This document shows positions 18,995-49,398 of a DNA stretch of 64,000 nt, one piece after another; position 1 is the first letter of the stretch, and each line of letters starts with the position of its first letter. The position numbers and the translations under genes were made by a program. Under the pieces are notes generated by a model. That model did not search any database and was not told where the DNA came from. It worked only from the letters and a program-made list of their open reading frames with translations. Origin of the DNA: Methylobacter sp. (GTDB lineage Bacteria; Pseudomonadota; Gammaproteobacteria; Methylococcales; Methylomonadaceae); the NCBI GenBank assembly GCA_004299305.1, contig SCPZ01000097.1:150457-214456 (forward strand), read 5' to 3'.

Positions 18995-19047
18995 CGTAAC
19001 TGTTCAGCCGCAAATTGACAGATAGACTGGAATATAGAGCCCATACG

Positions 19048-19093
19048 TTTTTTGTAAATGAACCAAGGTCTTAAGCGGTTCATTTACAAAAAA
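19048..19093. repeat. Perfect inverted repeat between ddl and ftsQ
   Basis: ttttttgtaaatgaacc - aaggtcttaagc - ggttcatttacaaaaaa: 17-bp perfect arms with a 12-nt loop. Confidence 0.9.
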
Positions 19094-19156
19094 CAGCGAA
19101 AGCAATCCGTTTAATCCGTGTTGATCTGTGGCTGGACAGTTAGCGGTCATACACCA

Positions 19157-22469: not shown

Positions 22470-23549
22470 TCATAACTCCACCTCAGCGATGCAAGCACTA
22501 GCAACGGTTTCTGTCGCATCCAGCCGCGCGTATTCTTTTGCGGTTTTACTCATTACATCCAGGTGCTTAAGTGCCTTTGCTATATGATCTACCAAGGTTG
22601 TTGCATCCAAGTCTTTTTGCATCAATGTCAAGCTGGCGCCTGCATCAGTTAAATATCTGGCATTGGCTGTTTGATGATCGTCAATCGCATTTGGCAAGGG
22701 TATAAATATGGCAGGAACTCCGGCTGCCGCCACTTCGCTGACAGTCATGGCACCGGATCTGCAAATCACTAGGTCAGCCCATTGATAGGTAGCCCCCATG
22801 TCTTCAATAAATGCACTAACTTCCGCTTTTACGCCTAATGCTTTATATCGGCTCCCGACTTGTTCTTGCATGGCCGTACCGGTTTGGTGTTTTATTTGTA
22901 TTGCATTCCCATGCACTACATCGGAAGACAAGACCGCAAGAGCATCAGGCACAATTTCATTCAATGCTTGAGCTCCCTGACTGCCGCCAACGACTAATAT
23001 GTTAATCTCCCCTAGCTCCTCTTTTTTAAAGAGGGGAGCTAGGGGAATTACAAACTGCTTTCTTAACGGGTTTCCAGTAAATTTAGCATTAACTGGTTTA
23101 TTAAAACTGCCTGGAAACGCTTCCAATACCTGATTGGCAATGCGCGCCAACAACCGATTAGTGGTGCCGGGCACCCGGTTTTGTTCGTGAATGACCAGGG
23201 GGATGCCTAACAACTTTGCCATTAGTCCGCCAGGCCCCGCTACAAAACCGCCCATACCCAACACCACATCCGGCTTGCGCGTTTGCAATATTTTTAATGC
23301 TTGTACGCAGGCCTTTATCAATAACAATACCGCCGTTATTTTTGCCAGCCATCCTTTGCCCCGGACACCGGCAACCGATAACCAGTCAATATCTATACCC
23401 TGCTCAGGAATTACCCGGCTTTCCAAGCCCTTTTGTGTCCCCAGCCAACTGACCTGCCAACCTTTTTCTATCAGCAGTTGAGCTACCGCCAGCGCAGGAA
23501 ACACATGCCCCCCGGTTCCTCCTGCCATAATAACGATGCGATTAGCCAT
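22470..23549 (-). CDS. murG: UDP-GlcNAc:undecaprenyl-PP-MurNAc-pentapeptide transferase
   Basis: MANRIVIMAGGTGGHVFPALAVA, GMGGFVAGPGGLMAKLLGIPLVIHEQN and CRSGAMTVSEVAAAGVPAIFIPLP. Confidence 0.97.
   Translation of the reverse strand: MANRIVIMAGGTGGHVFPALAVAQLLIEKGWQVSWLGTQKGLESRVIPEQGIDIDWLSVAGVRGKGWLAKITAVLLLIKACVQALKILQTRKPDVVLGMGGFVAGPGGLMAKLLGIPLVIHEQNRVPGTTNRLLARIANQVLEAFPGSFNKPVNAKFTGNPLRKQFVIPLAPLFKKEELGEINILVVGGSQGAQALNEIVPDALAVLSSDVVHGNAIQIKHQTGTAMQEQVGSRYKALGVKAEVSAFIEDMGATYQWADLVICRSGAMTVSEVAAAGVPAIFIPLPNAIDDHQTANARYLTDAGASLTLMQKDLDATTLVDHIAKALKHLDVMSKTAKEYARLDATETVASACIAEVEL
23009..23045. repeat. Palindromic element inside the murG coding sequence
   Basis: cccctagctcctcttttttaaagaggggagctagggg: 16 paired bp (10 + 6, with a 2-nt bulge), translated as PLAPLFKKEELGE. 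Confidence 0.9.
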
Positions 23550-24702
23550 GTCGGCTTCTCTTTGGCGTACCGGCATTTATTTCGGCAACTTCACTTTGCA
23601 CACGAAATAACAAGGCAACCGCACAGCACATGATCATCATGCTGCCGCCGCCATAACTCATCAACGGCAAGGTCAGACCTTTGGTTGGCAAGATGCCCAT
23701 ATTGACGCCCATATTGACGAATGACTGAAAGCCGAACCAAATCCCCAAGCCGTAGGCAATAAATGCGGAAAACCGTTGGCCTGCCTGTTCGGCAGCGACG
23801 GCTATTGCAAAAGTACGCCATACCAATAACGAAAATAAACCAATAACAGTAACCACGCCCAACAAGCCTAACTCCTCCGCTATCACTGAGAACAAAAAAT
23901 CTGTGTGAGCTTCAGGTAAATAAAATAATTTCTGTATACCACTGCCCAAGCCCACGCCTAACCATTCCCCGCGTCCAAACGAAATAAGCGCCTGGACTAA
24001 TTGAAAGCCGGTCTTCAAAGGGTCAGCCCAAGGATCCATAAAACTGGTAACCCGAACCAGACGGTAAGGCGAAAAATAAACCAATAACATTGCCAGTACG
24101 CCAATGATCAATAGCAGCATTATAAATTGCGATAATCTCGCTCCTGCTAAAAACATAACACCCATGGCTATCATCATAATGACCACCGCAGAACCAAAAT
24201 CCGGTTCCAACAACAACAACAGGCTGGCCACTGAAAATAACCCCAGCGGTTTGAGCAAGCCAAAAGCCGCATTTTGCACTGACTCCTGATATCGTGTCAC
24301 GTAGCCGGCCATGTAGATAACGGAAAAAAACTTAACTACTTCTGATACTTGTATTCTTACGCCGGCTAACGACAACCAGCGCACACTACCGTTAACCTTT
24401 ACGCCGAGTCCGGGGATTAACACAATAATCAGTAACAGCAACCCGGCTAGAAACAACCGGGGGCCATTTTCTTCCCAGACCCGCATCGGAATTGCCGCCA
24501 CGCCCCCACCGAAGACCAACCCCAAACCTATATGCATCAACTGCCTGACAGGATAATACAAGCCATTGCCGGTCATTTTTATGCCCAAATGCAATGATGC
24601 GGATGCCACCATCACATAGCCGATCAACAACAAACTGATACTCACAGCAAGCAACACCGGGTCAAAATGAAATCGACCGCCCCGCGCCCGCAACGCTTTC
24701 AT
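23542..24702 (-). CDS. ftsW: Peptidoglycan polymerase FtsW
   Basis: SEDS family: GLGSGIQKLFYLPEAHTDFLFSVIAEELGLLG, GILPTKGLTLPLMSYGGGSMMIM. Confidence 0.97.
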   Translation of the reverse strand: MKALRARGGRFHFDPVLLAVSISLLLIGYVMVASASLHLGIKMTGNGLYYPVRQLMHIGLGLVFGGGVAAIPMRVWEENGPRLFLAGLLLLIIVLIPGLGVKVNGSVRWLSLAGVRIQVSEVVKFFSVIYMAGYVTRYQESVQNAAFGLLKPLGLFSVASLLLLLEPDFGSAVVIMMIAMGVMFLAGARLSQFIMLLLIIGVLAMLLVYFSPYRLVRVTSFMDPWADPLKTGFQLVQALISFGRGEWLGVGLGSGIQKLFYLPEAHTDFLFSVIAEELGLLGVVTVIGLFSLLVWRTFAIAVAAEQAGQRFSAFIAYGLGIWFGFQSFVNMGVNMGILPTKGLTLPLMSYGGGSMMIMCCAVALLFRVQSEVAEINAGTPKRSRHG

Positions 24703-26236: not shown

Positions 26237-27319
26237 TTATCTCAGTTTCAAGGTAGCCAAGCCAACCAACACTAAAATGACGGTAATAATCCAGAATCGC
26301 ACGATAACGCGAGGTTCCGGCCAGCCTTTCAATTCAAAATGATGATGTATCGGCGCCATACGAAAAACGCGTTTACCGGTTATTTTAAAAGACGCCACCT
26401 GGATAATCACCGATACCGTTTCCATGACAAATACACCGCCCATAATCATCAATACGATTTCCTGTCTGACTAATACTGCCAGCACACCTAAAGCTGCGCC
26501 CAGAGCCAGCGCACCGACATCACCCATGAACACCATAGCGGGATAGGCGTTAAACCATAAAAAGCCCAATCCGGCGCCGACCAAAGCGGCGCAAAATACG
26601 ATGAGCTCTCCTGCATTAGGCAAATAAGGTATTGCCAGATATTGTGAAAAAGTCACATGTCCTGAGAGATACGCAAAAATTCCCAAGCCGGCAGCAACCA
26701 TCACGGTAGGCATAATCGCCAGCCCGTCCAGCCCATCGGTCAAGTTGACAGCGTTACTGGTTCCAACGATCACAAAATAAGTCAGAACCATATACATCCA
26801 GCCCATATCCAGCATGAAGTCTTTAAAAAATGGGACAATCAATTGTGTTTCTGCCGGCAGTATTGCGGTTTTATATAAAAAAACCGCCGCCATTAAACCG
26901 ATGACGGATTGCCAGGAATACTTGGCTTTAGCCGATAAACCGTCACTGTTACCTTTAATGACTTTCCTGTAATCATCGATAAAACCGATGATGCCGTAAC
27001 CCAAGGTCACCAACAAAATAACCCATATATAACGGTTGCCCAAATCCGCCCACAATAGAGTGCTGAATGCAATGGCGACCAATATTAATGTTCCCCCCAT
27101 GGTAGGCGTGCCCGCCTTTTCGTAATGCGATTGAGGCCCCAGCTCGCGAATACTTTGTCCAATCTTGTTGCGGCTCAATTTCCTAATCATTACCGGTCCG
27201 ATAATAAAAGAAATGACCAGTGAGGTTAAGGCGCCAAGAATGGCGCGAAAAGTCAGGTAATGAAATACTCTGAAACCGCCATCGAAGGTCATTAAATAAT
27301 CTGCAAAATAAAGTAACAT
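26237..27319 (-). CDS. mraY: Phospho-MurNAc-pentapeptide transferase
   Basis: [29 protein letters not shown] and [23 protein letters not shown]. Confidence 0.98.
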
Positions 27320-28776
27320 TATTTATATCCTGAAGTTTTGCCTACATCCCTGTGGTTCGAGCGTGAGTCCGTCACCATGGGCGCAGGAGGTAGAACTACG
27401 CCGGGAGCAGTCGCCGAGGAGCGGAAGTCTTCAACCAATGCGGCCGCTACATTCTCCATGCGTTGAGCCCTTGACCCTTTGATCAAAATAACTTCATCGC
27501 CTTTGAGTTCTTGCTTTAACGCCTCAATCAAATCATTTTTAGTGTCAAAAAAAGTAGCTGCTTTACCAAAAGTTTTTACTGTATTTCGGGCGTCCGAACC
27601 TGTAGCAAAAAGACGCACAACGCCACTTGATTTAATGAGCTCCCCCATTTTTTCATGTATTTTTGCGCTCTCAGGACCCAACTCGCCAAAAGCGCCTAAA
27701 ACTAACCAACGCTTACCGGTACAGTTAGCCAATACATCCAGTCCGGCTTTTAGTGAAGCTGAATTGGCGTTGTAAGTATCATCTATAACAATATTGCCTA
27801 AACGACTTACCAGCGGTTGTAATCGTCCTGTGACTGGCTTTACGCTTTCCAGCCCCTGTTTAATTTGTTGCGGATCAATGCCTAGCGCCAAACATGCCGT
27901 TGTTGCGGCCAATGCGTTTACGACATTATGCTGGCCTGCCAGTTTTAGTTTTATCGTCAACTCGCCTGCTCTGGTCACTAATGCAAAGATCGTGACGAAG
28001 GCATGGTCAATAATTTCTGTTTTGACGGAATGGGCTGTCACATCTGCCCGCTCATCCATCCCAAACGATATGACTTTCTTTGTGTCGGCTACCGATTTCC
28101 AGTAGTCGAAATAGGCATCATCGCGGTTAAGAACTGCCACGCCGTCTTGTTTAAGCGTCTGGATTATTTCCCCTTTCGCTTCGGCGACACCGTCAATACT
28201 GCCGAAACCCTCTATATGTGCGGCTCCCACGTTGGTAATGATAGCAACATCCGCCTGTGCATATTGACTAGTATATTTAATTTCGTCCGGATGGTTTGCG
28301 CCCATCTCAATGACTGCGTACCGATGTTGTTCGTTCAAACGCAACAAGGTTAAGGGTACGCCGATGTCATTATTCAGATTGCCTTGAGTAAACAGCGTAT
28401 TACCGTTGAGGCTCAATATGGCCGCCACCATTTCCTTGGCGGTGGTTTTTCCGTTACTGCCGGTAATGCCTACTACCGATACTGACGCTTTTTTTCTCCA
28501 AGTTCCTGCCAACTTAGCCAAGGCTAAACGCGTATCGTCAACAACAATATGCGGTATCGCTGTAGTAATGCCTTGATGCACAATTGCTGCGGCAGCTCCA
28601 GCTTGCGCTGCCTCAGTCACAAAGTCATTGCCGTCAAAGTTATAGCCTTTTATTGCAACATAAAGCTGTCCCGGCTTTATCGCCCTGGTATCTATGCTGA
28701 CCGATGAGATGATTCTATCGTCCCCAATCAACCGTCCCTGTACACTCGCTGCAATCTCACTTAACAGCATATTCAT
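27319..28776 (-). CDS. murF: UDP-MurNAc-tripeptide--D-alanyl-D-Ala ligase
   Basis: [36 protein letters not shown] and [18 protein letters not shown]. Confidence 0.97.
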
Positions 28777-48699: not shown

Positions 48700-48732
48700 A
48701 GACCTTCCAGGTTTTAAAAACCTGGAAGGTCT
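48700..48732. repeat. Perfect palindrome agaccttccaggtttt-a-aaaacctggaaggtct
   Basis: 16-bp perfect arms with a 1-nt centre, in non-coding sequence. Confidence 0.9.
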
Positions 48733-48868: not shown

Positions 48869-49398
48869 TGCGAGCAGTCACAATTTGCGCTTTTTGAATC
48901 CCCTCGGCAACTGCTCTCTGCGTCACCTAAAGCGCCTACTGTTGGTGCTCTACCTCCTGCATCCTTGTCGTCACCCCATCCCTCTCCCGAAGGGCATAAG
49001 TATCTACACATCTTTGGCTAATGCTTGTAAAACAATTAGTTAGTATACTTGATAAAAAACAGCAATTTTATGAAAAATCAATTGGTTGCAAAAGTTGTGT
49101 GGATACTTGTGCTTAAGCGGGGGAGCTTCATAGTAGGGCTATCGCTCTTCGTTCTCACTGTTGTCGCCTATCTTCACAATGCCTTGCTATTTTTCAGTTG
49201 TATAGACTTTCAGATAAATAATTTTCATCTTCGATGATATGGGTAACATCTCTCTGAGGGATGTTATCCTTGCAATTACTAAAATTTGGAAATTTAATTT
49301 CTGAAAATCTATAGGTAATAACTCTGAAACCTGCATAAACATCGGTCAAAAAATAATTGTACAATTTTTAGTCAATTCATATAATATGTACATCACGG

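Follow-up and report, generated by a model that had tools for sequence, protein, structure and literature searches.

The question raised by this locus is what a long palindrome lying within the reading frame of murG is, and how it came to be there. The window, by which we mean the whole 64-kb stretch of DNA analysed (contig C118, 150457-214456), has its nearest named relatives in Methylobacter. Its murG ORF (22470-23576, minus strand) encodes 368 amino acids, the true start probably being MANRIVIM at about 23549; it is the one murG copy in the genome and is intact, with a TIGR01133 score of 352.8 bits (cut-off 250). The palindrome lies at 23008-23046, where the plus strand reads TCCCCTAGCTCC TCTTT-TTT-AAAGA GG GGAGCTAGGGGA. 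The left arm (23008-23024) pairs with the right arm (23028-23046) over 12 bp and, past a 2-nt bulge (GG, 23033-23034), over 5 bp more, leaving a loop of 3 nt. A palindrome inside murG had been pointed out in the earlier note, and it is present where that note put it; the long stem stands as well, but its length is 17 bp, plus the bulge, and not 16 bp. On the murG-sense strand the hairpin folds with -29.1 kcal/mol as compared with -13.8 +/- 2.7 kcal/mol for dinucleotide shuffles (z = -5.7), and none of the 200 shuffles folded as well. Hairpins of this class (arms of at least 15 bp with at most one mismatch) number three in the window, including that of murG, against a mean of 0.03 per window in 60 dinucleotide-shuffled windows. 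The shuffle folding and the hairpin counts together rule out a chance origin. An intrinsic terminator was also considered and rejected, as the sense strand goes on GAUUAACAU without a U-run and the terminator scan lists none there. The Rfam search returned no match at threshold for the hairpin, the best being a chance match of 20.1 bits (cut-off 83). Elsewhere in the window, we observed a perfect 18-bp inverted repeat with a 12-nt spacer at 19047-19094 (GTTTTTTGTAAATGAACC), a perfect 16-bp inverted repeat with a 1-nt spacer at 48700-48732 (AGACCTTCCAGGTTTT), and a perfect 14-bp hairpin at 1494-1537 (CTAGTTCCCTCTCC-AACA-GGAGAGGGAACTAG), the last belonging to a repeat family (family D) with partial copies at several other sites of the genome sample.

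The homologous unit of the murG element is slightly larger than the stem, extending over about 23004-23049 (minus strand), and its in-frame reading is VIPLAPLFKKEELGEI, flanked by GNPLRKQF and ILVVGGSQGA, in agreement with the translation within murG proposed earlier. Going by the reading frame, the element encodes a segment of the hinge that joins the two halves of MurG. In the AF2 model of MurG (mean pLDDT 71.6), the residues of the element form a coil with pLDDT below 50; as nearly all of residues 133-188 are of low confidence, this disorder is not specific to the insert. The modelled coil is weakly consistent with a tolerated flexible segment.

We then asked what the element is related to. 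It shows both the sequence pattern (AATCCCC..TAGC..CCCCTTTnnnAAAGGGG..GCTAGGGGGATT) and the hairpin of a dispersed repeat, here called family A, the members of which are about 36-75 bp in size; the long form (e.g., L073, L118) consists of two hairpins in inverted orientation and has long terminal inverted repeats, and the window copy is of the short form. Closely similar copies sharing the common ends AATCCCC...GGGGATT occur in unrelated genes and in intergenic DNA. The murG element is about 80% identical to family A over 44-46 nt of C/T-rich sequence; its homology rests on that identity, and it is, as far as the alignment tells, a drifted copy. Its score against one family copy (L191) was equalled by 1 of 20,000 random palindromes of the same composition, and its best score over six family copies by 2 of 20,000 composition-matched ones. 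In our reading of the alignment, murG has T-A pairs at two stem positions where other copies have C-G, which is indicative that the stem was kept through the change. The earlier note had suggested a search for intergenic copies of the palindrome; genome searches found no second exact or near-exact copy, and what they did find was diverged members, some of them intergenic and others lying in frame within six or more further genes. A query with the element of L073 likewise recovered family A copies elsewhere in the window genome (copy counts come from sequence searches and a 416-kb sample). Our sample of the order Methylococcales comprised 132 good-quality genomes and 44 genera, and family A DNA is present in 54 and 21 of these, respectively. 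The PLSDB plasmids yielded no family A, and 22 stretches of IMG/VR viral contigs (L256-L277) match the strict pattern, so that contigs of phages or proviruses may carry the family or serve as its vehicle.

Judging from the copies that can still be recognised, most family A elements of the window genome appear to lie translated in frame in core genes. In-frame copies were found as a double hairpin in pgeF (contig C136), directly after the start codon in trpG (C41), in holB (C42), in a linker of sucB (C135), in the C-terminal tail of accD (C104), and in the N-terminal part of cbtB (C30; the CbtB match is just below its cut-off, 62.2 vs 64.4 bits). Other copies are intergenic or at an ORF end (C118:59728 and C50:25703), and one, of ambiguous context, sits where a PilP gene begins (C66). 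Comparison with relatives reveals empty and filled states of the same sites, which are clear for trpG and pgeF. In trpG, 9 of 13 genomes in the comparison have the empty site MSAVK|VVM; the window genome has MSAVK-IPPSPPFTKEGI-KVVM, a net gain of 39 nt that would fit an insert of 36 nt together with a duplicated AAA (3 nt), and G021, G019, and G001 carry inserts of +39 to +48 nt after MSAVK. In pgeF, the empty site is ATGCAA-CAGAGC-GATTTT (...ATGCAACAGAGCGATTTTCTGG...) and the filled one ATGCAA-ATCCCC...GGGGGG-GATTTT (...ATGCAAATCCCC...GGGGGGATTTTCTGG...), which means that six native bases were replaced. An empty/filled pattern is likewise found in accD, holB, and sucB in several species. Family A inserts of relatives lie in polA (N-terminus), bioH, hisC, coaBC, dapC, a ketoacyl-ACP synthase gene, narG and nuoM (both C-terminus), and pglX, and in another genus one lies within an ORF of 942 amino acids (L250). 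Element-like peptides occur in long ORFs throughout the genus. In two species (L228 and L236), the insert directly follows the start of polA, the gene for DNA polymerase I.

We compared the murG linker itself in some 60 orthologues (Methylobacter, Methylovulum, Crenothrix, and other families), in which the usual core, from F to GGSQGA, is 54-69 nt long and non-palindromic. The residues encoded by the palindrome are lineage-specific in this alignment, other orthologues having unrelated linkers at that spot, and the PLAPLFKKEELGE peptide was not found with non-palindromic codons in relatives, a result that the earlier note had named as contrary to its reading. The exception to the unrelated linkers is a Methylobacter clade in which several species carry other palindromic inserts of different sizes; in all, inserts of several kinds occur in about a dozen species of one group (support 100/95), and close relatives of these species have an ordinary linker without the hairpin. 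The inserts include the 46-nt single hairpin of the window, long double hairpins (L035, L078, and L073, the last being a 73-nt element, PPSPPFSKGGLASPFEKGGSRGI, folding with -53.7 kcal/mol), longer inserts readable as three units (L081, L082), a repeat of another family (family B) nested within a family A element (L038), a hybrid stem (L069), and a third, unrelated palindrome (L042). Such palindromes have apparently decayed in L039 and L014, leaving remnants. Between the sister species of L040 and L069, the inner and outer parts of the stem are swapped. Insert-bearing and insert-free sequences are interleaved within one clade of the murG tree, requiring at least six changes of state, a number which covers gain, loss, or allele recombination alike on a partly resolved tree. 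By these comparisons, the linker site is an insertion hotspot, and the event in the window looks like an element taking the place of the old linker rather than a simple addition.

A comparable situation is found at a second gene of the window, murF (27319-28776, minus strand). Compared with the shortest relatives, its C-terminal tail has 32 additional residues, and within it, at the 3' end of the gene (27319-27420), lies an in-frame family B repeat (27376-27418, minus strand). Five relatives (L278, L281-L283, L285) end in ENFRI* or ENFRK*, and six others (L279, L280, L284, L286, L288, L289) have other repeat-derived tails at exactly the same point. In the 416-kb sample, family B numbers about a dozen copies; the family, here in murF, contains GTAG beside a GCAAC/GTTGC stem and may be a true GTAG REP. 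Another family B-like copy, apparently outside long ORFs, lies at 48903-48960.

Taken together, we consider it highly probable that the murG palindrome comes from a dispersed Methylococcales family of non-autonomous, most likely mobile, palindromes, as a short (single-hairpin) and diverged copy translated in the interdomain linker. What the comparisons establish, at the level of sequence, is that the element belongs to the family, is read in frame, and occupies the site in a lineage-specific manner, and that linkers and tails, this one included, are filled repeatedly; the steps that follow concern how this state would have come about. Copies of family A would arise through mobilisation in trans or through template-switch copying, and insertions into core genes would be seen only where the frame is kept, in a flexible, non-catalytic linker or a terminal tail, at which the encoded Pro/Gly/Lys-rich peptide (of the IPP.PPFSKGG..RGI type) would be tolerated. 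Imperfect palindromes would be re-perfected by hairpin-templated (quasipalindrome) correction, such that stems stay intact as the sequence drifts, and old copies would decay to ordinary linker. A benefit to the host is unnecessary for this explanation. The window genome has six Y1_Tnp (RAYT-like) genes; their examined flanks contain no family A, with weak matches to families B and D near one of them (L222) only. No parental IS was found for family A in this search of the Y1_Tnp genes, nor any consistent target-site duplication.

Alternatively, a short native quasi-palindrome of the murG linker could have been lengthened in place by template switching during replication, without any mobile element. 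Three observations speak for such growth: native bases are missing at the murG and pgeF sites, which makes these replacements and not clean additions or textbook insertions with target duplications; the swapped stem parts of L040 and L069 are probably the result of hairpin-templated rewriting; and the holB palindrome of G019 (L161) has perfect 27-bp inverted arms reaching into the native flanks, which transposition leaves unexplained and hairpin-templated correction would explain. However, the murG sequence matches a dispersed family, like elements of which, with common ends, lie in unrelated genes and intergenic DNA, and growth in place cannot yield the same sequence at many loci; we therefore hold it very unlikely as the origin of the palindrome. 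Selection of the hairpin as an mRNA device, for example a ribosome pause between the coding halves for the two Rossmann domains that aids folding, or a stability element, would fit the strength of the stem (-29.1 kcal/mol) at a domain boundary and its retention through paired changes (the two C-G to T-A replacements of our alignment reading). It is very improbable nonetheless, since the hairpin is absent there in close relatives and decayed in L039 and L014, the element is not confined to domain boundaries but is also found at protein ends, N-terminal in trpG and polA and C-terminal in narG and accD, and the murG hairpin is neither a terminator nor a member of an Rfam family at threshold.

The remaining alternative is a variant of the preferred explanation, as it concerns the history of the murG site and not the identity of the element: a single ancestral insertion, later spread or erased by homologous recombination of alleles between species, might account for most of the pattern. 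All murG inserts do fall in the one supported clade (100/95), most of them with a family A outer stem, and the pgeF insert is nearly the same (long) in G019 and G015, the site being empty in G007, the sister of G015 by murG. Against this, the insert types differ in kind (the palindrome of L042 is unrelated), the nested repeat of L038 requires a further insertion, and yet other repeats occupy murF tails at one identical site, so that the single insertion is possible but on the doubtful side. On the preferred reading of a dispersed family, it is also conceivable, if rather unlikely, that translated palindromic repeats constitute an exchangeable supply of linkers and tails, with a few tolerant sites of essential genes (the MurG hinge, the MurF tail, the PgeF loop, the SucB linker, the AccD tail, and the N-termini of TrpG and PolA) being emptied and refilled time and again across species, each time by other element families, and some of the fillings having turned into functional protein parts.

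The resemblance to the protein-coding palindromes of Rickettsia suggested in the earlier note is borne out as a likeness of kind, with in-frame copies in unrelated genes, and not as membership of the same family. RPEs (Ogata et al., 2000, 2002) are palindromic, fall into several families, and lie in frame in unrelated core genes, according to PMC10969869. As characterised there, they are, like family A, selfish palindromes tolerated in frame within ORFs of known function, with members elsewhere in the genome. The two are likened by description and differ in size, RPEs being about 150 bp in that source and family A about 36-75 bp (46 nt in the window, 73 nt in L073), in the host, here free-living gammaproteobacterial methanotrophs, and in the nested and alternative elements found here at one linker. 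Intragenic GTAG/CGTC REPs of other bacteria, which as single or dimer palindromes encode about 20-30 residues within ORFs, including that of DNA polymerase I, are a further parallel, and flexible linkers or loops were suggested by those authors as neutral sites for REPs (PMC3733652). The stems of family A are longer, neither GTAG nor CGTC occurs on either strand of 23004-23049, and whereas GTAG REPs flank a RAYT gene, family A had no match in the six Y1_Tnp flanks examined. Bacterial MITEs (PMC10969869) are likewise short and non-autonomous and share terminal inverted repeats with the long form of family A. For family A, the Y1_Tnp genes searched yielded no parental IS, and target-site duplication is not consistent: trpG could carry one of 3 nt (AAA), and pgeF and murG show replacement. 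The coding palindromes of nematomorph mitochondria (PMC6649704) are also inverted repeats in protein-coding DNA; they belong to animal mitochondrial genes, reach 284 bp, and form no bacterial dispersed family.

In-frame coding palindromes are best known from Rickettsia, which is obligately intracellular, along with scattered intragenic REPs. Our literature search found no paper on palindromic repeats in Methylobacter, and intragenic inserts of the REP/RPE type are apparently unreported in methanotrophs. The present cases come from free-living methanotrophs and affect essential single-copy genes, and empty, filled, nested, and decayed sites are all seen among close relatives. Such sites make it testable how selfish DNA turns into protein sequence, how it is moved, and whether the inserts are neutral. 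The observation also calls for caution in annotation, as repeat-derived segments of the PPFSKGG type in methanotroph enzymes are not family-specific domains. In essence, selfish DNA would appear, from the genomes compared, to supply spare protein linkers in many core genes of Methylobacter or its close kin.
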